Origin: Buxus sempervirens
Lineage: Eukaryota; Streptophyta; Magnoliopsida; Buxales; Buxaceae
Direction: 5' to 3'
DNA length: 64,000 nucleotides
Assembly: GCA_947561395.2 (NCBI GenBank)
Contig: OX387182.1
Coordinates: 32,171,949 to 32,235,948, forward strand
Positions 6,901 through 47,340 of this stretch are shown here, piece by piece. The translations under genes were made by a program, and so were the position numbers. Below the pieces are notes generated by a model that saw only the letters and a list, made by a program, of their open reading frames with translations, was not told the DNA's origin and did not search any database. Position 1 is the first letter of the stretch, and each line of letters starts with the position of its first letter.

Positions 6901-6910
6901 AAAACTTAAT

Positions 6911-11908: not shown

Positions 11909-12041
11909 ATCCGTAATTATAATACGAGCATGGCGTGCCCGTATAAAGAATACGGATACACTGTGACCGTGGAAAATTTACGGGCAGAGTGCGCCCGTAT
12001 TAACATTATGGGCACGGCTTGCTTGTAATCTAATTACGGTT
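11909..12041. repeat. Z palindrome array at the A2 promoter, 28-bp grid
   Basis: Left arms lie at 11923, 11951, 11979, 12007 and 12035, exactly 28 bp apart. Each unit is a 7-bp arm, 7-bp spacer, 7-bp arm and 7-bp linker. The best unit is TACGGGC-N7-GCCCGTA at 11979-11999; others have one to three mismatches. A right arm at 11909-11915 continues the grid to the left. Confidence 0.93.
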
Positions 12042-12256
12042 CCTTCGGGAAAATGCCAAAAAGTGGGAAATTTTAATTTCATTGGTTTCCTAGGCTTCAC
12101 CTGTCCCTGCTTTAACATATATCATGCAAGAAAAGCTAGAAATAAAAGAAAAAAGAGCACAAATGAATAAAAATGAATCAAATTTCTTTTATATATATGA
12201 AGGGATACATCAGTTTGTCAAAATACAAATGTACATAAAGAATCCTAATCTACTAT

Positions 12257-15098
12257 CTACACAGGTCCACCCCTACGGCCACGGCCACGTCCTCTGCCTC
12301 GACCACGGCCTGAAGATCGTCGGGGCTCAAAAACATGTCGCATGATGTTACGGGCTATACTACGGGTCATCCTGCTCAAAACAGACTGAATATCATGCCA
12401 CATATATAAAGGCACAAGGCCAGCAGTGGGATGATCAAGAGGAACGTACCCCGAAGTATCTACATATCCTATAGACTCGGTATCAGAATCCATATAGACA
12501 AGCTCAGAATCGGCAGCAGCAGGATCAGCAAGAACGGACGTCCCAGGAACATCAGTCTCTACCTCAGGCTCCACAGGATCAACAGAAGCCTCCTCTATCA
12601 CCACGGCCTCCACAGTAGGCTCCACCACAGCGGCATCCCTGGCCAACTCCATATCCATATCTGCAGACGCATCAGGAGCGGTCTCAGGTGCTGGAGCAAA
12701 ATCTAGCACATCCACAATAGCAGGTGCAACCTCAGCCTCAACCTTAGGCTCTGCTGCAGGTGCCTCTACCGATCTGGGAAAAGTCACAAACTCCACCCGT
12801 GCCACAGAGAATACCTCCCCATGAAGATGCATAGGCACAGATGAAGCAGGTGAAGAAGGGTCGGCTGTGTCATCCTGAAAATAAGAAAGGAATTTTAATC
12901 AGAACAGGATAAACAGCTATAAAAGCAGGAATGGAAAGAGGTGAAAGAATTAACCTGGGTATGAGAGGGACCCGCCTGGTCCTGTGCACCAAAAGGGCCC
13001 GCCTGGCCCTGTGCCCTGGCAAGTTGTCCTCGGAGATCGGAAATAGTAATATAGAGGGCGTCCCGCTCGGCAATAGCAGCATCTCGCTGGCGCTCTATAT
13101 CAGCGTACCGAGACTGGATCTCTGCCAACTGAGCCTCCTGAAATAGAAGAGAAGGTGTCAGAAAATGCCAAGTTCAAATAAAGTATAAGAATGGAAGATG
13201 AAAAGGGAGAAGGCATACCGTCATATCATAGGCCCTAATCACTACCCCTCCAATCTCCGTGACTTCGCTACAGACAGGCATAGGTGGCATGAGACACCCA
13301 ACTAAAGCTCGCCTGAACCAGGCATCATAGTCACCCTCCCTTAATAATGTCTCTGCCTTAATCCAATCTAGGAATTGGGTAGGATCAACAGGCATAGGAG
13401 GAAAGGAGGGGGTAGTATCTGGAGGAATGGCAGGAATCCTAGGCTCTCCAACATACTAATAAAAGAAGCACTCGCCGCAATACCAGATGCTGCCCATCTG
13501 ACCGATGAAGAACTGGTAGCGGTGACGTCTCTGGTCAGGGGCAAAAGCATCATCCCTAGCCGCATGCAGGGCTAGCACCTTGTGAATGTCCTCCATCCTG
13601 GGGACGAACAGCTAGAAAATAGAAGGAGATATTAGACATGTGATCCAAAAGAAAAAAAAAGAAAGAGGAGGAATTAAAGCAGCTTACCTCAGACCGATAT
13701 AGCCTGTCCAGGTGGGCCCGGGCAGACCTAGGACGACTCTTTTCAAAGTCGTGCTCCACATGACACCATCTACGAGCCATGGGATATGTCTCCTCTGGCA
13801 TCGTAGAGGTAAGGCGAAAATAGGGGATATAAACCCTAGCAAAGAACTGCAAAAAGAAGAAAAAGGGTCAAGAAGAATAGAAAAGGAGAAAAGAGAAAGA
13901 AAGAGAAAGAAAAAGAAGAGAAATAGATATTTCACCTGCAGGAAGGGCCAGAAGAATCTGCACCCAACTCCAGCTCCTCTGGAAGTAGAGAGGCCGCTAA
14001 CTGATCGGCGCAGGCCGGCCAGAATGGTACCAAAAATGAACGGGCCCCATGCATACCTCCTCACTCGATGAAGATCTCCTAATAAGCTCAAAAAATGAGG
14101 ACTGACAAAAGTCGTGTCCTCTGGGAAGAAGCAGGAGCCCATCATGTACAGAAAAATGAAGCAGAATGCGAATGGAAAAGCTGGATCACCAGCGGCAAGC
14201 TGGCCAAGCTACCTCCCCCGGAAGGTCTCTCTCAACCAAGTCAGAGACAATCTCGCTCTCCCTCTATCCCATGCCTCCGGAGGCAACACAATATAGCCAA
14301 GATAAGAGGCAATCTCCTCGACATCCGGCATCACCATCTCGGGAATAATATCACCGATCATCCTAATCCCAGTGATAAGTGTAAAGTCAGACGGCCGGAT
14401 CCCAATCTCAACATCTGGAAAATGGAAGCTCAATGTCTCGGGGAAGAACCTCTCAAGCAACGTTGCAATAAGGGCTCGATCTAGACGCACATCCGGAATG
14501 GTGATGAAGAGGCCAAAGCTTTACAAGCCTAGCTCCCGGCGATAGGCTGAACTGCAATCTCCAATGAATCTAATAAAGCTGGCCCAGCTCCCTCTATAAT
14601 GAGACATGGGATACTCCAAAGGGATATCTGCCCTAATACACGCTGAGGGATGAGTCCACAAGCCATGCAAAAGATCAGTATCCCTAATCTAGGCAGCCAC
14701 CTCCTCAGGGACCTCAACCCTGGTCCTGGCCTCATCTCTGCCACAGCCTCCTCTGCGGCCTCCCCTACGGCCCTCATCATGGCCTCCATCTCTGCCTCCA
14801 CTGCAGCGCCCTCTACGGCTCCTATCTCGGCCTGAAGCCTCAACTGTAGGCTAAAGAAACAATTGGAGAGAAGAAAGAATCAGGGTGATGCATTTTGTGA
14901 AGGAATTTGAAAAACAGAAGGATTAGAGTATACCTCTGGGGTCGCCTCATGCGAATCCCCAGAAGGAAGATCTGGGATATCAGAATCAGAATCCCTTTCG
15001 GCCCTCGAAGACGAGGCCACATCCGCATGATCCCACCGAACCCTGGAGGAAGAGGGCTCATCTGCAGGATCCCTAGAGGTTGATCGAACACGAGCCAT
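12257..15098 (-). pseudogene. Antisense plant-mobile-domain gene A1 of Z1
   Basis: Second antisense gene, upstream of A2 on the same strand. In coding order: an acidic serine-rich start (MARVRSTSRDPADEPSSS, 15098); a PMD-like segment with ALIATLLERFFPETLSFHF (near 14480) and DFTLITGI; the PMD hallmark LLGDLHRVRRYAWGPFIF (near 14080); a segment with WCHVEHDFEKS (near 13760); a coiled coil (13128-12990); a Pro/Ala/Glu-rich acidic linker; and an Arg-Gly-rich tail ending RRGGPV at 12257. Several GT..AG-bordered gaps with pyrimidine tracts suggest introns, a known feature of these antisense genes. Fossil; I see no clear single open frame. Confidence 0.75.
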
Positions 15099-16398
15099 CT
15101 ACGGTACAAATCAGGGAGATGGTTAATTATTCTTGTTAAAGAGTTTTAATTGCTTGATTTTCATGTTAATTAAGTTTAATTGCTTGCAGGAAGAAGAAAA
15201 ACGGAGAATGGAAGGAAATACTGCAGAAACCTTCGACCACTCAGGGGTCAACTGAAGGAGTTCATTTTTATTATTGGCTTTATATTCTAAAAACAAAAAA
15301 CAAAAGAAAAAAGAAAAAAAAGAAAAAGAAAAAAAGAAGAAGAGAAAAGAAGTGTGCTAAGGATTTGATTTTAATGTTGAAATTTTATGTTTCACCTGAT
15401 TGTCTAAAGTTGTTTGGTTTCAGGGCAATTAAGGCAGTTGGTTCATGCCAAAACAATGGGATAGAATGTTCTCACAAAAAGGGTGTGCTAGATTGGGAGT
15501 TTGTACTCATTCAACAACTAAGCAAGTTCAAGCCTCAACAATATGCAAGGAAATAAGGCATCTGCAAAATATGGACTAAAAGCAGGAATTCAACCAGGAC
15601 AAAAATCAAAGACAAGAATTCCCATTTCTCAGAAGAAGGTCGCACATCAGTCATGGTCCAAACATGGAAGTTAAGATACAGAAGCATCAGCATATGCAGT
15701 ATATTTTCAAAATCAAAATGATGCAACAGTGAACACACTCAACAATTTGGAGACTTATTCAAAGCATCATGTATTCAGAGTCAAAGAATCATTCAGTGTT
15801 GAACAATGCAACAAAAGCAAAAGTTTGAGAATTTGTTCAAGATCAAAATTGACAGCTCAGGAATAAGTATTGGCCAAACAGAAAAACCAGATTCAGGACA
15901 AAGAAAACAAGTCAAGCAAAATTTCATTTCTGGTTGCATGGATACAAGCATGTGAAATGGGGAATTATCTTCGATCAAGAGCAAATTCATGCAGAAGACA
16001 AATTCGTGCATTAAACAAGATAGTTAAGTCATAAGGAATGCTGTGTATAAAAATTTCTGAGACTCGGCCACTTACTTGTGTCAGTAGAAATTGGAAAATT
16101 TGAAAACAAAGATCACACCTTGCTTCACCCGAGCTTCCACAGAAGAAATTCAAAGATGATTTATGTGTCGTACAGAATCCTGAGTGGAGAAGGAGGATGG
16201 CTGCAATGTCACTAGGGAAGTCCAACAAAAGGTGAAGGTCGCCAGAAATAGGAAAGCTCACCGGAGAATGTGAGAGTCGCCGGAGAATGTGAGAATCGCC
16301 GGAGAAGACGAAGTCGCCGCCGGAAGTTGTGTGTCACCGGAAGACAGGTGCGAGTTGTCGGAGATTGGAAGAAGAAGAGGGAGGACCGGAGAAGAGAA
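15099..16398 (-). other. Upstream region and leader of antisense gene A1
   Basis: No coding frame. On the minus strand the stretch about 16398-16200 is CT-rich with repeated CTCCGGCGA-type words, like a plant 5' leader. The rest (15110-16100) is A/T-rich and intron-like, with an A/G tract at 15290-15350. Confidence 0.5.
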
Positions 16399-16580
16399 TA
16401 CGGGCGTATAGGATTTAGGGCAGAAATGTGAGCAGAAAGGAAATGAGTTCACGGCCGCGGTTAAGAAGGAAGCCAAAATTCGTAAAAGTAATACCATCAG
16501 AGGCGCCCGTAAAGGTAATACGGTCAACTTCGCCCGTAGAAAATTTACGGGCAACATTTGTCCACAGTATAAATACGGGC
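16399..16580. repeat. Z palindrome array upstream of antisense gene A1
   Basis: TACGGGC-type left arms at 16399, 16492, 16519, 16546 and 16574, with GCCCGTA-type right arms at 16505 and 16532. Spacing is 27-28 bp, the grid of the LTR array with two spacers one base short. It lies upstream of A1 relative to that gene's minus-strand direction. Confidence 0.88.
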
Positions 16581-16913
16581 AAAGCAGAAAATTGCATTTT
16601 TTATTATTTTCTCCACACTTCTCAGGAGATTAATGTTTATATTAGTTGTAAGTTGCAAGGATTGCAATCTTACCCACTTTTGTTTAAAAATTTTGTCTCA
16701 AATCTCACTTCATAGCCACGAGTGCTCAGTGAGAGGAGAGAGGAGGATTTGCCCCTTAAGCTTAAGGACTTTTAGCAAATCTTCCGCAATGAATTCTTTT
16801 TCCCAAAATCATCCATTTAATCCTTGCAAAATGCAATTAGTTAGACAAAGATCTCAAAAAGTGCAATTGGTGGGTCTTTTTGCTCTCTGCTTGTAATTGG
16901 TTCCAATTACCAG

Positions 16914-16928
16914 TAAAGAGGGGGCAGT
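16914..16928 (+). promoter_or_regulatory. Polypurine tract of Z1
   Basis: AAAGAGGGGGCAG directly before the 3' LTR; an almost identical tract precedes the Z2 3' LTR (59102-59115). This is the plus-strand primer site of the family. Confidence 0.85.
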
Positions 16929-18735
16929 TGTAAACACCCCAAATTGCACTACAAAATGAGAAAATAATGAAAACATATAATTGGAATTGAAAACAGGCCA
17001 AAAATGCATGAAAATCAATAATTCGAGCCTTGACCATATTGTACCTACGGGCTGAGCGCGCTCGGATTTTGTATACGGGCATGCAGCGCTCGTAATACAT
17101 ATACGGACACCACTGGACCGTAAATCATTTACGGGCACATTAGATTTGTGCGAGTTTTATTCTTTCTCGATTTCTGAGCCTTATCTTTAGTCCAATATCC
17201 CTTTAAATGAGCAAATTATATCTTTTATTCGTTCGGATTATCTTTGTTGGCCATGGATGGGCATTATCCTTGTGTTTAACTCAATCTGAAACTCTATCTT
17301 GCAAAACCTTGGACCAACCATACCCCTGAGTTTGCCTATAAATAGAGGGCCTTTCCTCAAACAAAAGGCAACGAAAATTTGAATTCCAAGGAGCTCCAAG
17401 AGAATAGAGGAATCCCTGCTGCTTTGCCTGCTTAATCCAGGTAAGTCCCTTTTCCCCTTTATTTTCTTTCTTCAATTCTAGAAGTAATAGGATCTTCTCC
17501 ATTACTGTAGAATAAGGCCATCTTTTATCTTGTATTCCCAAACTTGTCTCTAAGTACCTCAAGAGTCTCTCTAGCCGTAAAACGTGAAGAGAGAACTAGG
17601 GGAAAGGGGAACAGGTGGATCCCTATAATAGAACCCCATAATTTGTTTTTCTCCTTTTTTATAGAATAAGGCCTTTGATTGTGTTTGTATCACCAAACCT
17701 ATCTCTAAATACCTCAAGAGTCTCTCTAGCCGTAAAACGTGAAGAGAGAGCTAGGGGAAAAGAGAACAGGTGGATCCGTAGGGTAGGCCCCCATGTGCTC
17801 TAATCTGTGAGATGTAGCTGTTTTGGATATAATGTTCATATTTTAATGATCTTTTGATTGAATCTGAATGAATCATATGAATCCATGACGTTTATAGTAT
17901 GAGATCCCCACTTTTTTCTATAATTTGGATTTTTCACATCTCTGCACCTACAGCACTGTTTTCGTGATTTTTGTGATATTAGGCTAGGATCCTAGATCTA
18001 TCATGATCAGTATGGTAGATCTGGATCCAGAAGCCTGGAAATAACCTCTAGGGTTTCATGATATGGTTTTTGAATCGTTTTTCATATTTGAGAGAAGACC
18101 CTACGGTCTAAGTTCTCCCCTTTTGATGTTCTTCATCAACGTGGGTATTTTTGGTTTTGATTTTTTGATTTAGTGTGAAATTTGGGCTCTACATATATCC
18201 TGGACTATTCAAGTTCAATTTTTAAATATTTTATAAAAATCATATTTTTCTAGATTTCTAAAATTTAACTTGAAACCAAATTTTTGAAGATTTCACTTTA
18301 GATTGGTTTTATTTGATTTTATCTCAATTTTGTTTTGATCATGAAACCATAGGAATGGTATGATCATATTTGAAAGTTTTGGATCAATCAGGCTATTCGT
18401 ATGAAAAAACCATACAGTTTTGTCTTTTTTGTGATTTTTCCTGATTTTTATAGCAAGCTTTTTCCTTTATTTTAACATGAACAATGCCTGGCAACCACCT
18501 TGTGTGGATGAATAGGGGTGCCTAACACCTTCCCCTATTCATAACCTAATCCCCTTACCCATCTCTGGTTGTTTTTTTAATAGGGTTATTTTTACCCTAA
18601 ATTTGCCTTTTTTTGCTTATTTGATATTTTTGGTGTCCATTCACACCTAAACAGAATGGTGGCGACTCTTTGTTTTAACCAATCCCGTGTGATGATTGGG
18701 GAAGTCATTGGATTGACTTTTTCCCATGTCTCACA
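16929..18735 (+). repeat. 3' LTR of Z1
   Basis: 1807 bp, TGTAAACACCCC..TCTCACA. Parts: U3 palindrome array 17046-17155, TATA box TATAAATA 17336-17343, splice-donor consensus CCAG|GTAAGT at 17440|17441, and PBS-like GGTGGCGACTCT near the end. It is flanked on the right by reversed Y3 sequence. Confidence 0.95.
17046..17155. repeat. U3 palindrome array of the Z1 3' LTR
   Basis: Left arms at 17046, 17074, 17102 and 17130, exactly 28 bp apart. The first three units are arm 7, spacer 7, arm 7, linker 7. The fourth has an 11-bp spacer, seen more clearly at window positions 1-24 of the 5' LTR. Confidence 0.94.
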
Positions 18736-20366
18736 ATTTCGAGGGGTAACATGAAATGTGTTAGGATTAAATTCGATTTGAGTTGAAACATCTATTGAAG
18801 GTGGTAGAAGTGTAGAACAACTGTTGTGGAGGCTTGAATTTAGGACAGTCATATCTAGATTGAGTTAACAATGAGTGAAAACCTTACCGAGGAAACAAGG
18901 GAGCATCCGCTAGGGCTGCTGCCTACTACTCCTACTCAGCGACAGCTCAACGCATAGAAAATTTGGGTCCACTGACCTGGCGCCAAGGGGCTCGAGGTCA
19001 GCGCACCCACCAATTCTCCAGGTGATGTGTGGCTGACCAATTTGAGCTCGTTTCTTGTTCTCTAATGCTTAATCCCATTAGCTAGAAGTTAGACTAAGTT
19101 GTTAGAAGCATTTTTAATTGCTCAAAACCTACGGAGATCATTGGGTAAATTATTGGTAGGTTTATGAGTTCCCAAAGGTAAAGTTTGAAGAACTGTTGGT
19201 AGTTTAAATTGCTGTTCTTGATACCAGGAGTTAGTGACTTAGTTTTATCTATGTTTTACAATTGTTTTCCAGTTTGTGAACTTGTCTAACCTGAGTTTAG
19301 CGGATTGCAAAGTATTGAGTCGGATTTATGAATATTGTCTTTGTGTAATTAAAAGGATTTTTCTACCGGTTGGATTTGTGTTTTTGGGTTAGAATATCTA
19401 CTGAAGTTCCATGAGTTACTATTCTGTTCCAGAGTGACCTGTGATGAGTTTATATTGGGTTATACATGATGGCGACAACGGTTGATTTGTTGTGTTGTCA
19501 GTGGTGAGTTTATGCATTTGATATTCTATTTTCTGTTTAGCTACGCCTGGATCCTTGTCTAAGCTTAGTAATGTGATGGTATTGTTTATTGGTGTAATTG
19601 CATAGCCTTGTGTGTTGCCACAACCAGTGTAGAGCAGCCAGAAACCCTAAGTAGGCCTAGTTGTCAATGCCAATTCCCGGAGTAGGTCGGCATTGGATGA
19701 CGAAACCCTGAGTAGGCCATCATTTCAGAGTTCCGAAACCCTGAGTAGGCCGGAACTGTGTACATAGAGATGTGGATGTCTCCTTGGCATGTCAATTAAC
19801 CGATTAAAGCAATAGGCATGACATTGACCATTCTTTGATTTATTGGGGTTGTTATTTGTCTTTTATTGGAAACTATTATTGGAGTTTTGGATTACTACTT
19901 TGGAATTATCTCTATTGACTGAATTGTACTGGTTATTCATCGTGGCATATTTATAACTGACGATAACTATTTCTGCATTCATATGCTACACGCTGAGATA
20001 TTCGTATCTCATCTCATTTGTTTTTGTTTTATTTCCAGATACTCGTGGTGAGGCGCCTACTGGGGTAGATCCGACTGACACTTATAGGGAGGAGGATTAT
20101 TACTACATTCCATAGACCAGTAGGTTTTTTCTGGATTGGAAATTTTGACTTGTTGTTATGGAAATGTAATAAACTGGATTGACAGTGGTTCGATTTGACT
20201 ATAACCAAACACTTTCTTTGGGCTTCCTAGTTAATTATTGTTTGTGCACTCTGATATGGTAGATCTTAAGTGATTATCCAGTGATCAGATGAGTCGGGGG
20301 CCCATGCCTAACACTCCGTGAGATGTGTTATATCTTTATTGAACAACACGGATCCGGGGCATTATA
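18736..20366 (-). mobile_element. Partial LTR Y3, reversed
   Basis: Ends with CGGATCCGGGGC.., the reverse complement of the Y family start (TGTAACGCCCCGGATCCG). It carries the Y hairpin array (19636-19757). Its left part is cut off where Z1 begins, so Z1 probably inserted into this Y copy. No coding frame. Confidence 0.85.
19636..19757 (-). repeat. Y3 hairpin array
   Basis: Four units of the Y loop (minus strand GCCTACTCAGGGTTT or close) flanked by unit-specific inverted arms. The third unit's arms are AATGCC/GGCATT (19666-19671, 19689-19694). Copies Y1 and Y2 have AATGCAG/CTGCATT there, a compensated change. Confidence 0.85.
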
Positions 20367-20576
20367 GACTGGCCTGTAAATCCTTCATCCGGGCTCCGAT
20401 TCCAGCAAACTCAGTTGCGTTGGAACCATGTCAGGATTCTCTATCCATTGAGATAAAGCAAGGTAGCCAATTATCACTTGATCAAAAAGTCCACTTTTTG
20501 CCCCCTCAAGGTTTGACTTTTCAGCTAGGGTTTGCATTTCCGGCACTTCCAGGGGTGCAAAAATGAGGTGCTTACA
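20367..20576 (-). mobile_element. X2, end fragment of a reversed X LTR
   Basis: Shows the X start region in reverse: the conserved block around GCAAACTCAGTTGCGTTGGA and the end AATGAGGTGCTTACA. It is interrupted on its left by Y3. It sits inside the forward LTR X3. Confidence 0.85.
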
Positions 20577-20628
20577 GGCAAATCTAAACAAGATAACTTA
20601 AAATCACTTGGCAACCTTCATGGGGGCT

Positions 20629-20678
20629 GATAAGTCATGAAAATACCACATTTTAGCACATTAATTTCATGACTTATC
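20629..20678. repeat. Terminal 14-bp inverted repeat of W
   Basis: GATAAGTCATGAAA (20629-20642) and its exact reverse complement (20665-20678), separated by 22 bp, at the very start of the LTR. Confidence 0.95.
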
Positions 20679-20886
20679 TGGTTTTATCTCATATTTAATT
20701 CCCAATTTTACTTAGAAATTGCCAAATCCTTTCATCTTTGCATTTTATTTTCATTATTTAAATGTTGCCTAATTTGTTGATGTAGAGACACTCTTGGTGG
20801 TTATAGAAGTTATGGTTCAGACGGCGTCACAATCGGAGTCAAATTGCAGAAATTATGATCAATGTTAGATAGCCGTTTGAAGTACT

Positions 20887-21245
20887 GTTCGAACGTTCAG
20901 TGAAAAACCCAGTTGCAAACAAACCCGAGAGTTACGTTCGAGAAGACAGGACCTACCGTTCGACCGTTCAGTGCATACAGTCAAACCCAAGAGTTGCATT
21001 CGCCAATGAGAGACTTGCCGTTTGAACGTTCAAGGTCTGCAGAGAAACCCGAGAGTATTGTTCGATAGTGCGGGAAGCGGCGTTCAAACGTTAGCGTATT
21101 TTAACCTAACGTGAGATACATTGTTCAAACGTTGGTATTGATAGAGCCAAGCGTGAGGCAGTCGTTCTAACGAGAAGAGGAGAAGTTAGTTTTAGTATGG
21201 AACGTGAGAGCCGTGTTCGATGAATGTTCGAACGTTCAATACGGA
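20887..21245. repeat. W U3 array of GTTCGAACGTTCA-type palindromes
   Basis: Motif starts at 20887, 20958, 21020 and 21082 give a roughly 62-71-bp tandem repeat that also contains an AAACCCGAGAGT word. Further copies lie near 21123 and 21226. One copy contains the perfect palindrome TTGAACGTTCAA (21022-21033). The array lies upstream of the W TATA box. Confidence 0.85.
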
Positions 21246-23307: not shown

Positions 23308-23414
23308 GTGTAGCCGGCCTGAGATGCCCGCTACACATAGAGACCAGTGTATCCGGCATTCTTCGCCGGTTACGAACAGGTCTCTGTTGATCCGACCTGA
23401 GTTGCCGGATCAAC
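23308..23414 (-). repeat. X4 palindrome cluster 2
   Basis: Three 29-bp palindromes centred at 23322, 23361 and 23400, exactly 39 bp apart. Arms are of GTGTAGCCGGC, GTGTATCCGGC and GTTGATCCGAC type with 7-bp spacers. Confidence 0.92.
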
Positions 23415-24295
23415 ACACAGAAGCTATTTTTTTGGATTTTGACAATGGGGTTGGGTTTCTAGGCTTCATGGGGTGCTCCGGGATTGCGGCAGGGACCTAA
23501 GTGTCCCTGTTTGGGTCTTCATCTCTCACATATGAATGAATTAAACATGCAAATGCAGCTCTACTAATCCAATCTAGCATGCATCTCAGCCATTATAAAC
23601 ACATGCATTTTTACGGGGTTTTGCACATGAAATAAAGTGTGTGTGTGAGCATGTGTTAGAAAGGAAAGAGAAGGGGGTTTACGTGGGGGATACAAAAGAT
23701 TAGACGAGAGGAACATGCTCCTCTATCAAATAAGAGGATAATCATGGCCAAACGGAAATTCCAGCAGCTCAAATGACTTGATAGGGTGTTGAAAACCTCT
23801 CACCCTCTCCGGTGGAACCACACCCATGAATCCTCTAACCTTGGAGAACTCATGGGATACCAATGGAAAGGAAATACATGGAGATTATGCAAGAAAATAA
23901 CACAACAGAAAGGAGAGAGCATACTTTTTCTAAAAATCATGCTAGAGGCTCATTTTCATATATATGGTGTAAATGGTTATGGGGAACAATACCTTGGGGC
24001 TTTGAAGCCTTTGTGTGGTGTAGAGATTCCTCTTTGAAGCTCAACAGTGGCTGGAACCTCTCCTTGTGCCACCAAGAACAGCAAGTCCTCCTTTGGGTTT
24101 GAGTGGAAATGAAGAGGAAGAAGTGAGGAGAGAGTGGGAGAGTCTTAAGGTTGTGCTTGAGGGTTTAGGGAGCCAAAGGGAGGTAAGGTGAGGGGTTTTC
24201 GGAGTGGACACAGAGGGGGAAGAAAGGTGGAAACAGCAAAAATGAAGCCAACCCTTGAAATGGGGCTGCTGTTGCCTTTTTATACAAAACTTAAT

Positions 24296-24526
24296 GTATC
24301 CGGCATTTAATGTCGGATACACTACACTTCCTTTGTATCCGGCATATTATGTCGGATACACTGCACCTCCTTTGTATCCGGCATATTATATCAGATACAA
24401 ACACAATCATTTCGAAAATTAAATGCCGCCGCGAATTTGTCGGGGAATCGGCGCGAATCTTTGTATCCAACATTTGATGTCGGATATGAAGAGGAGCAAG
24501 TGTATCCGGCATATTTGGTCGGATAA
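24296..24526 (-). repeat. X4 palindrome cluster 1 (3+2 units)
   Basis: 25-bp units start at 24296, 24335, 24374, then 24463 and 24502: 39 bp within each subgroup, as in X1. Arms are GTATCCGGC/GTCGGATAC-like with some decay. A minus-strand TATA-like GTATAAAAAG lies just left, near 24275. Confidence 0.93.
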
Positions 24527-30430: not shown

Positions 30431-32379
30431 ATTTCTCTTCTCCCAAATGCCCTAGGACTCCCAGCCGAAATCCTTCGAACTCCAAAAGTATGCGAAAACG
30501 AAAACGCTAGAGTCTAAATGCGCTAAGTATTTATACTTACTTTAAATACACTTTGCCGCTCGATGAGTTTTAAAACCACTTGATTTGGTGCATGCTAGCC
30601 CACGCAAGGATTCCTACATATTCAACTCATTTAAGTGTGCGATGAGGTACCTGCCACTCCACAGATAACCTACACCAGCATCTTCCCCAAATAAATAAAT
30701 TTTTCCCATTTTAAATAATTCATCCTATTTAGATTTTAAATTTAGCTCAAATTAATTTCCTCTTCTCAATTATTAAAATTTTTCATTAATTAAACTAATT
30801 AACAACAAAATCTAAAATATTTTTATGTTATTAAAATTCGGGATTTTACATTTAGACATGCTAATGAGGGCTGGAAACAACATACGAAGGGGTATGGAAG
30901 GAATCCTTCATGTATGGTGCCTAGTGGGCTGATCTGGAAGTGCAAGTGAGTGTGTGGAGCTGCTGGGAACAGCAGTTATCTAGGTGGGGAAAGGGGAACA
31001 TGTTTACTAACACCAAATAGATGCACAATAAAGGGTATGGCCACAACCAATCCATGGGGTAGGGGAAGCATGTAAAAAAAACATCCAGATAACAAGCTAA
31101 AAAGAGGAAGGAAACGTGTAGGAATCAAATACCAAGAACAACTTATCATTAGCATGCATCCTTATAACTATTCGACATCCAAAAACATGCTTCCTCTTAG
31201 ATTAAAGAAAAACATCAACTTAGAATGCCTTAAGACATGAAAATAAAGCCATCTCTCCTCCCTTATAACCAAACGTGCACCCCCCTTTACCATGGGTGGC
31301 CTTTCACATGATGATAATGAGATGAAATGAAGAATAAAGTATGCAGAAAAACATCTCTTAACAGTGGAAAACACAGCTCTCCATACTTTCTCAAAATGTC
31401 CCCATTCTCACATATATGCAATACAAAGTGATAGGAAACATTACCTTGGGGCTTAAACCCTTGTGTGGGGTGTGAGGACCCCCTTTTGAGACAAACAGTG
31501 GCTGGACAGTCCTCCTCCAACAGCACCAGCAACCTCCTCCTCCTTCAAGTTTTTAAGTGGAGAAGATGAAGAAGCAAAAGTGAATGGAGGAGTAGGATGA
31601 GCTTTGATGGGGTTTTAATGGTTTGGGATGCAAAAAAAGGGCAAAGAGAGAAGGTTTCGGATCAGAGACAATGAGGGAGAAGGGGTAAAAATGAGCCAAG
31701 AGAAGCCAACCCCTCTCTACTGTTCGGATTTTCTATTTATAGAACACAGTGACAAAACCGCACACTCAGTGCAGTTTGGTCGAAAATGAATAGTAACCGC
31801 ACATAACCGCAGGGTATGTACGGTTTTGGCCCTGTCTTTTCAGCAATGATTAGGGGACAAACTGGTCAGTCGTAGTTTTACCCGCCATGCAACCGTACTG
31901 TAAGTGCGGCTACTTTTTGCGCGCCGCTTGCGCTGATTGGCTCACCCAATGGTGGCCGAAAAAAATCAACCGCACACCATATGAGGTTGTGAAGAAACCG
32001 CATATTGTGCCTTTTTCTCTCCCCTTTTTTGTTTTGAGTTGATGGCTGAGGTGACTCAGCCGCCCACTCGGACGAATTAGACTTCTCCAATTATTATTAT
32101 TTCCCATTTATCTTAATTAGTTTAATTAAGATATTAAACTTTGATTGATTTGCCCCTGGGACTGTTTTGCTCATATCTTTTCCATCCGGGCTACGATTCC
32201 AGCAAACTCAGTTGCGTTGGAATCGTGTCAGGATCCTCTATCCACGGGGATAAAGCAAGGTAGTCAATTATCACTTGATCAAAGAGTCAACTTTTGCCCT
32301 CCTTAGGGTTTGACTTTTCAACTAAGGTTTTCATTTTCCGCATTTCCGGGGGGTGCAAAAATGAGGTGCTTACACCATG

Positions 32380-34594: not shown

Positions 34595-34793
34595 GGCGCT
34601 CACTTCCTGAAGTGGGCGCCAGGTGGACGTCGGTCGGTGGTAAGAAAAATAGGGTAAATTGTAGCTTGCGCTCACTCGACGCTAAGTGAGCGCGAGATAG
34701 GCGCGAGCTGAGCGCCAGGTTCGCGCGAGCTGAGCGGCAGGTTTTCGAGTGCACGCGAGCTGAGCGCCGGGTTCGCGCAAGCTCGGCGGTAGG
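34595..34793 (+). repeat. Y2 GC-rich repeats upstream of TATA
   Basis: An inverted repeat GGCGCTCACTTC/GAAGTGGGCGCC (34595-34620, one mismatch) is followed by four copies of a GCGAGCTGAGCGCC-type unit starting near 34702, 34723, 34753 and 34773. The Y2 TATA box follows about 85 bp later. Confidence 0.85.
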
Positions 34794-37375: not shown

Positions 37376-37481
37376 GGTGATCCGACGACTCAGGTCGGAT
37401 CACCCATGGCTAGTTTGTATCCGACCATGATGGTCGGATACATTAAAGTGAGTGTGTAGCCTACCATGAAGGTTGGCTACA
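37376..37481 (+). repeat. X6 palindrome cluster 2
   Basis: Three palindromes centred at 37390, 37429 and 37468, exactly 39 bp apart: GGTGATCCGAC/GTCGGATCACC (perfect), TGTATCCGAC/GTCGGATACA (perfect), TGTAGCCTAC/GTTGGCTACA (one mismatch). All spacers are 7 bp. Confidence 0.95.
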
Positions 37482-38583
37482 TGACATAAGTGCTAATTTT
37501 GATATCTTCTTGATTTGGTTGCCCAATTTTTATGATATTTTCAAAAAAACCAAATGAACCAACAGGGTTTCTGGGTCACTCGGAAACCCAACATGGGACA
37601 TGGACCACCGGTCCAACCAAGAACACTAGTGGGCCTTCCAACGAGGCCCACCAAGCCCAACAAACCCTAAAGCATGAAAATAAGCAATTTAAGCAATCTA
37701 ACCAAATTAGGGGGGCCAAACCCAATGCGGCCCACCCGAGCCCATTTTGTGGAATGATGTGATAATTAGTATGGTTTGGCTAAGACCAAGGACTAGGGCC
37801 TATCGGGCCCACCAAGCCCATTAACCGAACCAAGTAAGGGTGCAAACCCAAAGCTTCAAGGAATCTGGGCTTTCAAGCCCAAAACTGGACCATGGGCCCC
37901 AAGCCCAATGTCCAAATGCACTTTGTCAAAATATTAAACAAGATAATACAAAAGTACTTTTGCAACCATCATGGGGGCCCACCTAAGGGCCCGCAAACCA
38001 ATGCCGACCCATTTTTGAATAAAAGACACTTAAATCCTAAATTGAAACCCTAAGATAAAAGCAATTCCTTTAATCTAGACCCAACGGGCCTCTTAGGCTT
38101 AGACAGAGGCCCACAGGGGATATGTGGGCTTAACCAAGTCCACCAAGGACACCGTGCGCCTTCCAACGGGGCCCACCCAATAAGACTCAGACCACCTAAT
38201 TAAGTAAGATAAAATCAATTAAGAGGGACCCACACCAATCAGGTGGTCCCACCAGACTTAAACAAAGTCGCATGTTGGAATAGGAATCGGGTGAGAAATC
38301 AGTGAGTTGACTCAAACCTAGAAGAACTCTATGGGACCCGTCAATCGACGGGGTGGACCGGGGTGTCTACAGACTTCCCCAGACCGCAACTGAGACCCTA
38401 CTTAGAATCTCAAGCCGCAAACCAGCCTTATTAGACAAACTTAGGCACCCAGATGTCCACCTGCACCCCATCAGGCGATGGTGACTCCAAATTCCCGTTT
38501 TACCCTCCCGGAGGCACGCATGGAAATCCGTGCACCCCACCGTGCCGCGATTTCACCGCGCACACAATCCTGTAGAAGCATGT

Positions 38584-39962
38584 TGTTAGCACCTCATTTT
38601 TGCACCCCCGAAAGAGCCAGAAATGCAAATCCTACTGAAAAGTCAAACCCCGAGGGGGCAAAAGTTGACTTTTTGATCACGTGAAAATTGGCCACCTTGC
38701 TTTATCCCAGTGGATAGAGAATCCCGACACGGTTCTAACGCAACTGAGTTTGTGGGAATCGGAGCCCGGATGAAGAATCTGCAGGCCGGTCAAACTTGAT
38801 GGGGAGCCGAAAGTTGAATTTCTGCTAAGCCCTGAATCAGCTACTTAATCCTATCCCGGTGGATAGAGGACTCCGATAAGGTTCTAACGCAATTGAATTT
38901 GCTCAAATCGGAGTCCGGATGAAGAAGATATGAGTTGTTGAAGTTACCGAGCAGCAAAAGTAGGAAACTACACACGCGGCAAAAGGTTGCACACATGGCG
39001 AGAGGCGTAGGAAAATATCTTGATGGGCAATCCGTGAATATCAAAACATTCAAAATATCTCAGGGACTAAATCAAAAATGCGCAGGGACCAAATCTGTGA
39101 ATATCCAGGGACTAAATCTGTAAATATCCGATTTGTATCCAACCATATATGTCGGATACGCACTCCTCTCTTCTTATCCGACATATATTGCCGGATACAA
39201 GAGATTTGCCTGCAAGATTCGCGCGGATTTGCTGACAAATACGCACAGAAAATTAAAATTTTGAAATAATTTTGTTTGTATCCGACATAAAATGTCGGAT
39301 ACAAAGGAAGTGCAGTGTATCCGACATAAAATGCCGGATACAAAGGAAGTGCAGTGTATCCGACATAAAATGCCGGATACAAAGGAAGTGCAGTGTATCC
39401 GACATAAAATGCCGGATACAAAAATTTTTCTATAAAAAGGCAACAGCAGCCCCATTCCGGGGGTTGGCTCTTTTCCACTTCTTCTTCCCCACTACCCTTG
39501 GTACGAAACCACCTACTCTCACCCCTCCTTGCACCATGAACCCTTAGAGCACCCCCTAAACACTCCCCCACCCTTCTCTACCTTCTTCTTCTCCACTAAA
39601 ACCTTGAAAGAAAACACAAAATCTGTTGTTGGAGTGAAGGAGGGGCTGTGTAAGTGCTGCTCCAACCGAAGGGGAGGTCAAGGATACTCAAAATAGCTCT
39701 GCAAGCCCAAGGTGAGCTTGCTTGTATTCTTTTATTCATCATATATAAAGGTGAGCCGATTTAGAGCATGTAGGTATTCATACATGTTGCAGAATTTTGT
39801 TTGTGCATAGTGTGTTTGTTTCCTCTCTAATTTAGTACCTCTGCGCGTCCTCTATGGATTATTGCTCTTCCAAGGTAAGAAGGGTAAGCTTTTGGTGGTT
39901 TAAAGGTAGGGAGGGGAGACTTTTTAGTTGATTAAAAGAGTCTAAAAGTCACTTGAAGTCTC
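38584..39962 (+). repeat. X7, forward X LTR, truncated on the right
   Basis: Starts TGTTAGCACCTC, has the two conserved blocks, cluster 1 (39135-39419) and TATA (39431-39438). It is then lost at the left end of Z2. It may be the 3' LTR of the X element whose leader starts at 25765, or a separate insertion. Confidence 0.8.
39135..39419 (+). repeat. X7 palindrome cluster 1 (2+4 units)
   Basis: 25-bp units start at 39135 and 39174, then 39278, 39317, 39356 and 39395, all 39 bp apart within subgroups. The 39278 unit (GTATCCGAC-N7-GTCGGATAC) is perfect. The last three are near-identical, showing recent tandem amplification. CTATAAAAAGG follows 11 bp after the last unit. Confidence 0.96.
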
Positions 39963-41402
39963 TGTAAAGTGAGAAAATAATTGAAAATATTAATTGGGAT
40001 TTAAAACAGGTCAAAAAAATGTAAAATCTAGCCAAGCTGGTCATGACCGTATTTTGTTTACGGTCTGGTCATACCTGCAGTTGATATACGGTCACGGCGT
40101 GCCCGTATTAATAATGGGTGCGACCGTAATATATATACGGGCATGGGGGTTTTGTGCGAATTTTATCTTTGCTCGATTTTTGAGCCTTATCTGCATCCAA
40201 ACATCTCTATGGATAAGCGAATTTATTTATTTATTTATTCGAAATATCCTTGTTGGCCAAGGATGGGCATGATCTTGTGTTTAACTCAAACTGAAACTCT
40301 ATCTTGCCAAACCTTGGACCAACTATACCCCTGAGTTTGCCCATAAATAGAGGGCCTTTCCTCAAGCAAAAGGCCACGAAAATTTGAAGTCTAAGAAGCT
40401 CCAAGAGAAGAGAGGAACCCCTGCTGCCTTGCTTGCTCAATCCAGGTAAGTCCCTTTTCCCTTTTATTTTCTGTCTTCAATTCTAGAAGTAATAGGATTT
40501 TCTCCTTTTTTATAGAATAAGGCCATCTTTTATTCTGTATTCCTAAACTTGTCTCTAAGTACCTCAAGAGTCTCTCTAACCGTAAAACGTGAAGAGAGAG
40601 CTAGGGGAAAAGAGAACGGGTGGATTCCTAGAATAGAACCCCATATCTGTTTTTCTCCTTTTTTTCTAGAATAAAGCCTGTGATTGTGTTTGTATACCCA
40701 AACCTATCTCTAAGTACCTCAAGAATCCTCTCTAGCCGTAAAATGTGAAGAGAGAGCTAAAGGAAAAGAGAACAGGTGGATCCGTAGGGTAGACCCCCAT
40801 GTGCTCTAATCTGTGAGATGTGGCTATTTTAAATATCTTGATCATGTTTTAATGGTTTTTATGATGAATCTGAATGAATAACATGAATCCATGATGTTTA
40901 TAGCATGAGATCCCCACTTTTTTATATAATTTGGATTTTCCACATATTTGCACCTACAGCACTGTTTTCATGATTTTTGTGATTTTAGGCTAAGATCCTG
41001 GATCTATCATGATCAATATGATAGATCTGGATCCAGAAGCCTAAAAGTAACTTCTAGGGTTTCATGATATGGTTTTTAAATCGTTTTTCATTATTGAGAG
41101 AAGACCCTACGGTCTAAGTTCTCCCCTTTTGATGTTCTTCATCAACGTGGGTATTTTTGGTTTTGATTTCTTGATTTAATGTGAAATTTGGGCTATATCT
41201 ATGTCCTGGACTATTCAAGTTCAATTTTGAAATATTTTATAAAAATCATATTTTTCTAGATTTCTAGAATTTGACTTGAAGCTAGATTTTGGATTTTTCA
41301 CTTTAAATTGATTTTATTTGATTTTATCTCAATTTTATTTTGATCATGAAAACCTAGGAATGGTATGATCATATTTGAAAGTTCTAGATCAATCAGACTA
41401 TT

Positions 41403-44400
41403 TGTGCGCGCGTCGGGAACGCGGCACGGGAAGTTCGGAGTCGCCACCGCCTGATGGGGTGCAGGCGGACACCTAGGTGCCTAATCTTGTCTATTGGGCT
41501 TTGGTCTGCGGCTTAAGATTCTAAGTTGGTTCTCGGTTGCAGTCTGGGGAAGTCCGTAGACACCCCAGTCCACCCCGTCGGATGACGGGTCCCGTGGGTT
41601 CCCTGGTTTGAGTCAGATTACTTTGGTCTCACCCGATTCCTAATCCAGCATGCCATTTGTTTAAGTCTGGTGGGACCACCTGGGTGGTGTGGGTCCCCTT
41701 AATGGATTTTATCTTGTTTTACTTAAGTTGTCTGAGTCTGATTGGGTGGGCCCCATTGGAAGGCCCACGGTTGTACCTGGTGGGCTTGGTTAAGCCAACA
41801 TGTCCCATGTGGGCCTCTGTCTATGCCTAAGAGGCCCTTTGGGTTTAGGTTTAGTGAATTAATTTTACTTAATTTGTTCAAATTGGAGGCTTATGGGATT
41901 TTCATACAATAAGTGGGTCTGCATTGATTTGCGGGCCCCTAGGTGGGCCCATGATGGTTGCCAAGATGTTTTTTAGTTTATCTTGTTTAACTTTGCCAAA
42001 GTGTACTGGATATGGGGCTTGGGGCCTGTGGTCCAGTTTTGGGTTTTGAAAGCCCAAATTCCTTGAAGCTTAGGGTTTGCACCCTTACTCGGTTTGGTTA
42101 ATGGGCTTGGCGGGCCCGATAGGCCCTTGCCCTAGGTCTCGGCCAAACCATGCTACTTATTGTATATTATGTTACACACACAAAAAATGGGTTTGGGGTG
42201 GGCCACATTGGGCTCGGCCCACTTGGTTCAGTTAAGTGCATTAAGTTGTTTAATTGCATGCATAAGAAGTTTGTTGGGCTTGGTGGGCCCCGTTGGAAGG
42301 CCCACTAATTGTTCCAAATTGGACCGGTGGTCCGGGTCCCATGTTGGGTTTTCGGGTGGCCCGGAAACCCTATTGGTTTACTTGGTTCGGTTGAACATGT
42401 CGTTCCATCGTAGCAAAATCATACCCAACAACAAGGCATCACACCATTCGGGCATATCGCAAAAAGAGAAAGGGGCTGTAGACCCTTGGGACAGCAATAA
42501 GGACAAAGTTCGGACAAGGGCTTGGTAGGCCCAAGAATGCAAGTATGGCAAGCCCCTAAGAGGCATCACCACTAGGAAGCCTAAACATGCTTTGGTGAGG
42601 TTATCATGTAACCAAGTGGGGGGGGGGGGGGGGGGGGGGGGGTGCTGCTGCTGTTCCCAGTAGAAGCTCATGCAAGCACCAATAAAAGCCACTAAGAAAA
42701 CATGCTCCCCATGCACAAGGGCAGCAAACCACGACCACAAGGAGAAGGGCTTACGCATATAATCAAGGCCGGAAATGGCAAGGCATGTTATACAAATATG
42801 CATGGAAAGAATATATGCAAAGAAGAAGAAAGAGACAAAACCTGATGCATAGGAAGGGAGCAGCAACTGTCATGGGGGTCTTGGTCGTACCAAGGGGTGT
42901 GCAATACAAATGGGATGAAGGGGGTCATGCTCATGAGGGTTACACATAGTATGCATGCGCTCAGAACAGCCTAATTACCAAGTGAGTGATGTCTATGCCG
43001 ATGAAAACAACTAAGAAAGCCTGCTGTGGGTGCACATGGCAGCAACCAAGAAAGACAGGTTGACCCATGCCATCAAGGCTAGCCATGGTGGACAAGTGGG
43101 GTTCATATGAACTCTGGGAGGCCTGCTGGTGGCTGTGGGACAGCAACCCACAGCCACCAGCATGGGCATGGTGGGGGGAGGGGCTGCACTTGTGTAGGTG
43201 CTGAGGTGTTAGGTTAGGTAGGCAAGCCGGTGGTCAAAGGTGCTGAGATAGTTGCTGCCCAAAAGGGGGAGGCAAGCACACTGAAGATCAGCAGGTACCC
43301 TAGGTAGGAGGGGTCATGCTCACATATATGTATCAGAAAAAAAGGAACAGCAAATAAACATGGGGAAGTTAGTGCTCACAAATTAATAGCATGCATGAGT
43401 TGATAAAATAACAGCAAGTTCAATGGGGGGAAGAAGACATGTATTCCTACCTAATGATAGTAGTAAGCAAGTAAACCAATGAAGAAGAAAAAACAACATC
43501 CTAGCAGGGCTACGTCCAGCACATGATCTCCAAGGATTCATGTACCTAAAAACTTTAGAGTTTAACCCTGAACCTACCTATGCATTCTCCCTAACCAATT
43601 AACACCTTATAATAACAAGAAAAGAACATGAAAGGGGCTGCATGGTGTTGGCGGACCTGCTAGGGACAGCTATGGCACCAAGGCCTACTGCTGTCCCCAA
43701 CAGCAGCCTATGGGGATCATTTCAAGTGGGTAGGAGGCCATGCTTGCTTGGACTATGAGACAACAAGTTACATGCAAAAGAGAACATGCATGCATGAGAG
43801 CTAGGGGGTTCGGATGTGGTGGCAAATCTGCTGGGAACAGCAGTGACACCAAGGCATGTTATTGTTCCCAGCAGCATCCCATATACATCTTTGCAAAGGG
43901 GGATTGAGGGGTGAAGGAAACATATGCTAGGCATCTCTTGGCAACAGCAAAAATAAGAGAAGAAAAGCACTCAACAACAATAATTATATGCAAGGATATA
44001 GAGTCTAAACTCACATCTAAACATGTCCACAAGTTGACCAAACTCACACCTAAAACAAGGACATGTGAGAGACATGCATGCTACAACCACAACCAGAAAA
44101 AAAAAACAACAAACATAGGAGGGGTACGGCCAGTAGCATAATACTAGAAATCCTTAAAGAAAAAGGTGACGAAAGGGGAGAAAAGATAAGGGAAATGGGG
44201 GGGTCACTTAGGGGTACATTAGACCAAAGAAGGGAGGAGCATTCTCCTCTAATAGTTGCTGGAAATGAAGCCAAAACAGCAACTAAAAATTACTAAGAAA
44301 ATGTGAAAAGAGACTCCCATGCTTCCTAAAAGACCTATGTAGACTTCTTACTTGCGGTGGCATTTATGCCATGAAAGAGAGAAAGAAGGAAAAGAAAAGA

Positions 44401-45644
44401 TGGTAGGTGCATGGATGAACCACCATGGATATGCTCATGCCAAGAAAGAAAAAAAAAACAGTAGAAATATTCCAGCTTTAATATATATTCAATGTAATGG
44501 GGTGAGGAGCCTTACCTTGAAGTTCTCAGCTCTCTAATGGAGGTGTATGACCCTCTTGGGGCACCACCACAGCTGGGACGTCCACCTCTTGACAGCAACA
44601 GCAATGACTCCACCTCTTGGTGGGGAGCAAGTGAAGAAGAAGGAGGAGATGGAGAGGTGGGAACAACTTGGGATGATCTAGGAGGGTATTGGAGGCAAGG
44701 GAGGTTGAGAAGAAGCTGGTTCGGAGAGGCTTAAATGGGCAAAGAAGGTGCCAAGTCCGAAAAATCAGCTAACCCCTTGAAAGGGGGCTGCTGCCCCCTT
44801 AAATAGTGCTTTTTTTTGTAGCCGATGAACAGTGCCGGATACACTATGTCCTATGTGTATCCGGCCTTCAAGGCCGGATACACTAAGGGTTATTTGTATC
44901 CGGCATTAAATTCCGAATACAAAACATAATTATTCGTAAAATTAATGCCGCCGCGAATCTGTCGGAGAATCGGTGCGAATCTTGCCGAGCAAATCTTTGT
45001 ATCCGGTATTTGAGTCCGGATATACACAAGGGTATGTGTATCCGGTATATTTGACCGGATACAAATCAAAAAATTACGGATTTGCCCTTCGACTTGACCG
45101 ATTCGAACGATTTGACACTTTTGGATATCTACGGATCGCCCCCTGCGAATTTTGGCTTAGTCCCTGAGATTTTTAGTGATTTTTGGATATTTAAGATTTA
45201 GTCCCCGAGATATTTTGCTGCGTTGGCTGCCACGTGGGCAGTTCCTGCGCCACGTGTGCAGTTTTCGGTTTTTCTGCGCGGAAACTTCGACAGCTCATAT
45301 CTCCTTCATCCGAACTCCGATTTGAGCAAACTCACTTGCGTTGGACTCGTATCGGAGCCCTCTATCCAATGATATAGGGCTAAGCACTTGGCACGGGGTT
45401 CAAGGAAAAGTCAACTTTCGGCTCTCCTTTGAGTTTGACCGGCCCACCGAACCTTCATCCGGACTCCGATTCCAACAAACTCAGTTGCGTTGGAACCGTG
45501 TCGGGATCCTCTATCCATTGAGATAAAGTAAGGTGGCCAATTATCACTTGATCAAAAGGTCAAATTTTGACCCCTCAGGTTTGACTTTCTGTCCAAGATT
45601 TGCATTTCCGGCTCTTCTGGGAGCGCAAAAATGAGGTGCTTACA
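41403..45644 (-). mobile_element. Solo LTR X8, inserted in the Z2 5' LTR
   Basis: 4242 bp, TGTGCGCGCG..GTGCTTACA, duplication CTATT (41398-41402, 45645-45649). The longest X LTR here. It carries a G homopolymer (near 42619-42642). Cluster 1 is at 44818-45062; cluster 2 was not found. No supported coding frame; the longest frames cross microsatellites. Confidence 0.93.
44818..45062 (-). repeat. X8 palindrome cluster 1 (3+2 units)
   Basis: Units start at 44818, 44857, 44896, then 44999 and 45038, 39 bp apart in subgroups. The 44857 unit (GTATCCGGCC-N5-GGCCGGATAC) is perfect; neighbours are decayed. Confidence 0.93.
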
Positions 45645-45989
45645 CTATTCATATGAAAAAACCATACAATTTTGTCTTTTTATGTGATTTTTCATATTTT
45701 ATAGCAAGCTTTTTTCCTTTATTTTAACATGAACAATACCTAGAAACCACCTTGTGTGGATGAATGGGGGTGCCTAACACCTTCCCCTGTTCATAACCTA
45801 ATCCCCTACCCATCTCTGGTTGTTTTTTTAGGAAGGTTATTTTTACCCTAAAATTGCCTTTTGAGCTTATTTAATATTTTGGTGTCCATTCACACCTAAA
45901 TTGAATGGTGGCGACTCTTTGTTTTATTCAATCCCGCGTGATGATAGAGGAAGTCATTGGATTCTTGATTTTTTCCCATGTCTCACAAC

Positions 45990-46007
45990 TGGCGACTCTG
46001 CTGGGGA
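45990..46007 (+). promoter_or_regulatory. Primer-binding site of Z2
   Basis: TGGCGACTCTGCTGGGGA starts 2 bp after the LTR end. A TGG start complementary to a tRNA CCA end is the standard form; Ogre-group elements are known to use tRNA-Arg. I did not match it to a specific tRNA. Confidence 0.85.
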
Positions 46008-47221
46008 CTTGAGGATTTCAGCCTTTTGGTGTTTGTTCATGTTTTTTATTTTTCGACTTGCTTGCTATTTTGTGTTCTTAAGCATGCTTGGTATGTTTTA
46101 AATCTGAATTATTGCTTAAGAGTTCATGGGGGTAGAAACATGCTTAATTTTGATTTATAGGATTGTTTCTACAAACATGCGTAGGGGAGGTTCGTTTTGC
46201 TGAACCATGTTTATTTCTTGCTATATTTTTATAATAGCATGTTTTAATTTTCAGCATGATCTCCATGATGATTTTTTGGTGTATAACATGATCAGATGCT
46301 TGCACAATTGGATGATTTTTATGAGCATGTTTTAGGTGCTATTGGATTGTTTTGTGTATTTGTTTACTTTAAATATGCTTTCATATTATGCCTTGGTTTG
46401 TTTATGCATGGCTACGAAAAGAGTGGCAAGGGTTTGGGACGTTGTGAATGCACCCTATTTTTACAATGCACTGTGCACATTTTATTTTTTTACACAACCT
46501 ACCCTTAACCTATAGGAAGTTGAACCCGAATGTGTTTAGCTTGGCGCAACGAGGTCAATACTTTGGAAAGCGAAAGTGAAAACATTCACCTTAGAACTTT
46601 GAGCTAATGATGTGATGATAACGTGGATCTGTGATTCTGGTCATCACTAGGCTTGAGTGCTAAGTTGCCATTAAGCCAAAACCCAAAACCCCTACGCTTG
46701 AAGGTGGAGTTACACGTTTTTGGCTAAAGTACACAATTACGTGGGGATATGGGCTTGTAATTGTGGGAAGGCCATTTGCATGGCTTACAAACCAGGGCAT
46801 AATGCGGATGCCATATTGAAGGTAAATAAGGTAACAAGGTGATCCTATTTCTCTACATTATTTTCATGTCATAGGGGTGTCGTGGTGCCCATTGGTTCGG
46901 GATAAAATTGGTCCCAAAATACGCATATTTTCTAAAATTGGTGCAGCCCATAAGAAGAGTTTCTAACTCTGTTTAGAATCAATCCTATCCAATGTTCATA
47001 CAAGAGGCAGCAAAAAGGGTACCAAATTCTAGAATGGTGTCAATTTGGAGGGTACATGTGCCCTCCTAAACATGTGTTTTAGCAAAAAGGTCAAAGTCCA
47101 CTTTCGGACAGTTTAGAAGCCCCGCACTGGGTGAACCGTATGTTTGGATGAACAATTAAAGTGATCAAACCATGTAAAAACTGGAAAAATATAACAGAGT
47201 TTCGTAAAACCGCATTTGATA

Positions 47222-47340
47222 CACGGGCTGGGCTCGTCCGTATTAGTCATACGGGCTGGGCTCGCCCGTGTTTTCCATACGGTCACGGCTCGCTCGTAAT
47301 TTGAATACGGGCAGGGCTGGACAATACTGTGTATACGGTT
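47222..47340. repeat. Z palindrome array in the Z2 leader, 28-bp grid
   Basis: Left arms at 47222, 47250, 47278, 47306 and 47334, exactly 28 bp apart. The first two units share the spacer TGGGCTC. The best units are TACGGGC-N7-GCCCGTG and CACGGGC-N7-GTCCGTA. Same arms as the LTR and antisense-gene arrays. Confidence 0.94.

Follow-up and report, generated by a model that had tools for sequence, protein, structure and literature searches.

Arrays of short palindromic motifs in retrotransposon promoters are best described in the Sireviruses, a Ty1/copia lineage. Their repeated motif (RM) boxes are palindromic CGG/CCG sequences, high in copy and family-specific, which cluster in the long terminal repeats (LTRs) ahead of the TATA box; envelope-bearing elements have them 5' of the accessory gene as well (available sections of PMC2829016). 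A second precedent comes from the VANC anti-silencing proteins of VANDAL transposons (MULE), where related proteins have different motif spectra (available sections of PMC5735166). The Sirevirus boxes are the nearest known thing, and the VANC targets the nearest in logic, to the arrays described here, which are found in a 64,000-nucleotide stretch of Buxus sempervirens DNA (the window; contig 1, 32171949–32235948, of a 676-Mb genome). The window holds a retrotransposon, Z, with the antisense genes A2 and A1 of the plant mobile domain (PMD) type, and LTRs of a second family, Y. The arrays are probably cis-regulatory operators for a dimeric regulator, widespread in Ogre-like elements.

Like the RM boxes, the Buxus arrays are palindromic, composed of CGG and CCG, present in high copy and located upstream of the LTR TATA box. 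Unlike the Sireviruses, the Buxus elements are Ty3/gypsy and Ogre-like by domain order, and their half-sites are spaced as CCG-N11-CGG, whereas 12 of the 13 Sirevirus boxes are, by our own reading of Table 3 in PMC2829016, CGG-N4 to N6-CCG and the other has no CGG. A strict 14/28-bp grid, arrays in the leader as well as ahead of the antisense PMD genes, and codes that switch between families at one geometry also set the Buxus arrays apart. As in VANDAL elements, the non-coding motif arrays differ between related elements. However, VANDAL is a DNA transposon, VANC has a DUF1985 domain that was not matched in A2, and the VANDAL motifs, as presented in the available part of PMC5735166, do not form palindromic pairs set on a grid.

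PMD proteins encoded by gypsy elements, as A2 is by a Ty3/gypsy element, have been described as the PMD-A clades (PMC5418596, PMC9289625). In their available sections these sources give the function of the domain as undetermined and, unlike for A2, describe no operator array for a PMD gene. Host PMD proteins are involved in silencing transposons. Genes with the promoter motif DOWN depend on two of them, MAIN and MAIL1, and whether these contact chromatin is given as unknown in the parts of PMC7156037 and PMC9899485 at hand. An anti-silencing use of PMDs captured by MULEs has been speculated upon (PMC5418596, in part). Antisense genes in a long region between pol and the 3' LTR are also found in Retand, where the TRP28 genes were proposed to have a regulatory, DNA-binding role (PMC11963269, in part). 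Retand differs in domain and lineage, and that part of the source does not present its tandem repeats as pairs of sites in a promoter. No direct precedent appeared among the papers listed in one open library on LOB-domain palindromes, Ogre/Tat palindromes or anti-silencing, antisense PMD in retrotransposons or PMD DNA-binding, so that absence is only weakly indicated.

Half-sites form inverted pairs

The exact palindrome TACGGGC-N7-GCCCGTA occurs 7,417 times genome-wide and a second code, TGCGGTT-N7-AACCGCA, 964 times; the reversed controls give no match for either. These sites, grid scans and a re-reading of the letters confirm the preliminary description of this DNA, which had reported palindromes with a 28-bp period at separate loci. 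In the window and 20 loci (264 kb), runs of at least four alternating CGG/CCG cores number 50 at a step of 14 bp and zero at the 12 other steps from 9 to 21. Runs in which the cores share one orientation number two, both at step 19. A looser half-site rule finds 75 arrays in the window and 30 loci (314 kb, all on contig 1); eight other periods yield none, and 60 Markov-1 simulations average 0.017 arrays. The 30 loci were the first listed palindrome places (20 for TACGGGC and 10 for TGCGGTT), and context was ignored in their choice.

The half-sites have the general form [TC][AG]CGG[GTA][CT] and alternate on a 14-bp step, with pairs stacked at 28 bp or, in one group of LTRs, at 39 bp. Among 83 arrays (chains of at least four half-sites in the window and loci L005–L044, with chains near locus ends dropped), the first half-site is CCG in 77, the last is CGG in 81 and the number of half-sites is even in 75; these chains include 20 related A2 promoters and hence are not independent. 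Because the arrays begin with CCG and finish with CGG, their building block is the inverted pair GCCCGTA-N7-TACGGGC, i.e. CCG-N11-CGG, half a period off the unit that had been read before. The pair centre is A/T-rich (19% GC), and the gap between pairs is 54% GC. TACGGGC-N7-GCCCGTA is rejected as the natural unit by the same starts and ends and is used here as a search key only.

Position of the arrays

Control regions contain nearly all arrays: 74 of the 75 found in the 314 kb lie in, or at most 150 bp from, matches to an LTR, a leader or the promoters of A2, A1 and the PMD gene of locus L012. They are distributed over Y LTRs (42), Z LTRs (20), A2 promoters (4), regions upstream of A1 (3), leaders (3) and the L012 PMD promoter (2). 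The single leftover array, in L054, is some 150 bp away from a match to a Y-type LTR. The expectation that arrays would be rare away from control regions is thus borne out. For the array upstream of A1, the stretch given in Table 1 stands, with an equivalent in L022 (~4992–5060), and position 16399, formerly counted with it, is an isolated half-site.

The distance to the TATA box is often fixed. In LTRs of the Y1 type, the TATA box starts 17 bp past the array end in nine cases out of ten and 18 bp in the tenth, and the distance is the same with 4, 6 or 8 half-sites per array. The pattern TACGG-N(5-35)-CTATAAATAG has 1,337 + 1,385 matches, with 18 + 12 in the control; the matches listed, four excepted, measure 29–32 bases. 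All 21 A2 copies have the TATA box CTATATAAACTC, and the 39-bp-period arrays end 10–11 bases before TATA in three of five copies examined.

Conservation of the half-sites

Half-site arms are better conserved than the sequences between them, as had been predicted. In the A2 promoter (21 copies), majority identity is 0.91 for arms, 0.75 for spacers and 0.73 for linkers, and in the U3 region (17 rows) it is 0.88, 0.69 and 0.67, respectively. The contrast between arms and the rest peaks at the true phase among 14 in both alignments (21 rows for A2 and 16 for U3, the misaligned row L014 being inside the 17-row means and dropped from the phase test). The 20 A2 copies beyond the window were hand-picked from 142 scored of 24,547 first-look candidates.

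A functionless 28-bp minisatellite, spreading neutrally by slippage and unequal exchange, would also give a periodic array. Units of 28 bp have indeed been gained or lost in the second LTR of L013, in L026 and in L035, and spacers are identical within some arrays (e.g. in L018), so that the earlier statement that the arrays do not arise by copying of one block needs qualification. It is correct in that arms and period are retained over diverging spacers and linkers. This divergence, the even half-site numbers and fixed ends, the different codes on one geometry and the confinement to control regions all speak against a minisatellite, to which we give very little credence.

With complementary arms, and with the leader array being part of the transcript, the palindromes could instead form hairpins in the RNA that serve in packaging or as a precursor or processing signal of small interfering RNA. 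At linker position 1, both sides have changed in 11 pairs, all to CCGTG..CACGG, and no double change is non-matching, with a match of 0.88 vs. 0.80 expected, although at least nine of these pairs come from one and the same region in related A2 promoters; spacer position 6 also matches above expectation (0.74 vs. 0.58). Pairing at spacer positions 1, 2 and 7 is at chance and never changes on both sides to a new pair, and the same holds for positions 2 and 7 of the linker. In the A2 array, position 6 of unit 2 is never paired (19 of 19 copies containing the unit). Symmetric changes would equally be predicted for a protein dimer that is itself symmetric. Since most arrays are upstream of TATA, and so should be outside the RNA, and pairing at the other positions is at chance level, an RNA hairpin is most improbable.

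The palindromes might also be targets of host silencing, i.e. CG-rich sites that draw methylation or a repressor and are kept because they are not losable. The element would profit from their loss, yet the sites are kept and multiplied beside the TATA box. A2, moreover, is still under purifying selection, as judged by a median pairwise dN/dS of 0.16 (210 pairs of 21 copies, four of which have stops). We consider silencing targets an unlikely explanation.

Codes in families Z and Y

The arrays had been taken as specific to the Z element, but the TACGGGC code is common to LTR families Z and Y and fills the LTRs of the latter. Orientation of the Y LTRs was set by the primer site and the purine tract. 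Of 13 with both ends found, 11 are solo LTRs in which the 5-bp flanks agree by eye. The LTRs of L017 and L018 apparently belong to longer elements; in the latter locus there is a primer site of the Z type, together with a stretch of gag that has 48% identity to that of Z. Between positions 7249 and 9124 of L017, the 3' internal region of a Y1 element has short frames repeated in tandem, in the place taken in Z by the antisense PMD genes.

The second code is also found in this family. All ten TGCGGTT loci fetched contain Y-related LTR matches, and in the four with LTR ends set (L045, L047, L049 and L050) the arrays occupy LTR positions close to those of the Y1 TACGGGC arrays. The Y2 LTR of L045 combines features of both codes: in two of its three arrays every half-site has G at position 2, the third is mostly TACGGTT, and positions 6–7 are TT or TC in all three. 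A further group, Y-related and nested in the window, has palindromes TGTATCCGGCATTAAATGCCGGATACA with a 39-bp period that are readable as CCG-N11-CGG, although their CCGG cores also permit CGG-N9-CCG. From these comparisons, the geometry appears constant, with flanking bases varying between codes.

Y LTRs, for example those of L006, L010 and L045, have an extra array downstream of TATA, at ~1500–1700 from the LTR start. No consistent TATA box was found at this 1.6-kb array on either strand.

Array type and PMD clade

The window and 20 fetched copies of PMD clade A have a TACGGGC-type array at the PMD promoter. Locus L012 belongs to clade B: its PMD gene is 67–70% identical to A2, the copy is decayed, and an AACCGCA/TGCGGTT array occupies the same place as the A2 promoter array. 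A DNA search with the 311-bp L012 promoter, in which 40 of 313 candidates were scored, found 41 matches, of which 40 are full-length or nearly so and one is short. The 40 promoters are 306–314 bases long, and, apart from the locus itself (100%), their identity is 90–93%. Directly upstream of a scored clade-B gene, on the opposite strand, lie 27 of them, 20 at a distance of 23 bases, and none of the 40 is within 5 kb of a scored clade-A gene. These counts refer to 142 scored genes of clade A and 150 of clade B, the latter from a protein search with L012 that had 5,534 candidates.

At the PMD promoter, the type of array appears to go with the PMD clade, as judged from one two-clade contrast in which, for clade B, the letters were read in L012 and the other 39 promoters were assigned by identity. 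The proposed association between arm type and PMD subtype holds to this extent, for clade A vs. clade B at that promoter. For TACGGGC, the sole clade-B gene in the listed range is that of L012, and the nearest exact site, ~0.7 kb away, is in a neighbouring Z LTR.

A candidate operator system and its binder

In the proposed mechanism, each CCG-N11-CGG pair would be bound by a protein dimer, and stacked dimers would activate the element and its PMD gene at the level of transcription or protect this transcription from silencing. Several observations weigh against operators of this kind. The Z U3 array is ~200 bp away from its TATA box, and no canonical TATA box was found near the leader array. 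At A1, the minus-strand TATA (16641) is on the array side away from the gene, and the plus-strand TATA (16568) is inside the array. With the leader and A1 having no TATA box in the expected place, the claim that every promoter of Z is marked by the code was too strong. The array flanks match the arms in conservation (0.89 and 0.91 in A2, 0.89 and 0.80 in U3), so the arms stand out against spacers and linkers only. Common descent of the LTR copies could partly explain both arm conservation and the fixed TATA distance. Finally, the third array of Y1 (~1.6 kb) differs from the promoter array in its mix at positions 6–7, and the code is therefore not uniform within one LTR.

The identity of the binder can be addressed more tentatively. 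It may be the PMD protein of the element or a partner of it, in which case A2 would regulate itself and every LTR with a matching code, including families such as Y that perhaps have no PMD. An element-encoded binder is a candidate that we put forward with reserve; it would be a retrotransposon counterpart of VANC. The fuller version of this proposal is a VANC-like circuit, in which the antisense PMD protein would be a sequence-specific dimer on CCG-N11-CGG that acts on its own promoter and on matching LTRs, the clades would have diverged in code and Y would be activated in trans. This circuit is rather doubtful on present sequence evidence; if it is true, the plant mobile domain gains a DNA target, for which the arrays offer a precise and testable candidate.

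A host transcription factor that recognises CCG/CGG pairs is likewise a tentative candidate, and about as likely. Such a factor might be of the LOB-domain kind, to give one example. The elements would then have evolved strong promoters that use it, with PMD doing something else, and the arrays would show thousands of LTRs sharing one host input. The presence of one code in both Z and Y favours a host factor. So does the failure to find a PMD beside the 3' LTR of one Y1 copy, in L017. Here a purine tract adjoining the LTR was taken to mark the preceding 4.2 kb as internal sequence. This stretch has no match to the Z gag, pol, A2 or A1 pieces (E ≤ 1e-4); its longest frame is 114 residues, and no PMD was found when eight of its 11 frames of at least 75 residues were put to Pfam. 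Y1 thus has the code of Z and no PMD found in that region, which implies a Z protein acting in trans or a host binder. In the Sirevirus boxes, which are similar in style, symmetry often marks cis-acting activators of retrotransposons (PMC2829016, in part). On the other hand, a code switch at constant geometry would follow more readily from an element-encoded protein that co-evolves with its sites, and so would the agreement of array type with PMD clade at the PMD promoter; the array, moreover, occupies the promoter of the PMD gene itself.

Besides the L017 region, two results count against PMD as the binder. An exact TGCGGTT palindrome is found within 28 kb of none of nine clade-B genes (contig 1, among the matches listed), and a profile search of solved structures gave one match, at E 0.91, and nothing useful. 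The search of a large protein collection returned no A2 homologue at E ≤ 0.001 among 8,000 scored candidates. Taken as a whole, the original interpretation of the arrays as sites of a self-regulating element is partly supported. Whichever protein binds, the CCG-N11-CGG grid is a strong signature for locating promoters of this lineage.

The Z element and other features of the window

Element Z has reverse transcriptase/RNase H (52927–54024) before integrase (55277–56509), which together with gag is the Ty3/gypsy order. A second RNase H domain (RVT_3, 7.7e-21) adjoins the integrase. From this domain content, Z would be an Ogre-like (Tat) Ty3/gypsy retrotransposon. Its PMD match scores 38.5 bits, above the Pfam cut-off of 34.9, and the only Pfam matches of A2 (E ≤ 0.01) are PMD and DUF7745. 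Coordinates are given in Table 1.

Table 1. Arrays, TATA boxes and coding features in the window (positions of the 64,000-nucleotide stretch)
Feature	Position	Strand	Remark
39-bp-period palindromes TGTATCCGGCATTAAATGCCGGATACA	6910..6999	.	directly upstream of TATA, in Y-type solo LTR 4130-7736
A2 first exon, plant mobile domain (PF10536)/DUF7745	11086..11787	-	antisense to gag-pol
A2 TATA box TATATAAA	11879..11886	-	24 bp past nearest half-site
A2 promoter half-site array	11909..12040	.	14-bp alternation; opens CCGTA, closes TACGG
Part of A1, weak PMD match	13687..14208	-	22.1 bits (cut-off 34.9)
A1 upstream half-site array	16478..16580	.	partly decayed; 27- and 28-bp steps
Listed feature enclosing U3 array	16929..18736	+	
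Span holding U3 palindromes 17046-17130	17032..17136	.	
Listed feature	17337..17344	+	
39-bp-period array, second Y-type LTR copy	24295..24399	.	
Degenerate AACCGC/TGCGGTT array, U3 of Y-type LTR	31756..31990	.	LTR start 32374, minus strand; TATA 31741 (-)
39-bp-period array, third Y-type LTR copy	39277..39422	.	
Listed feature	40045..40142	.	
Span holding leader palindromes 47222-47334	47208..47340	.	array also in L013 and L023
PF03732 match	48313..51489	+	
Feature enclosing reverse transcriptase/RNase H and integrase	51493..56509	+	
Span holding U3 palindromes 59233-59317	59219..59325	.	

Two further antisense frames, both without a Pfam match, accompany the PMD genes. The first (12260–12898, 213 amino acids) is located between A2 and A1 and is also present in L022 and L023 with 60–82% identity. 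The second (10053–10469, 139 amino acids) is downstream of A2 and has a counterpart in L045 with 90% identity over 107 residues.

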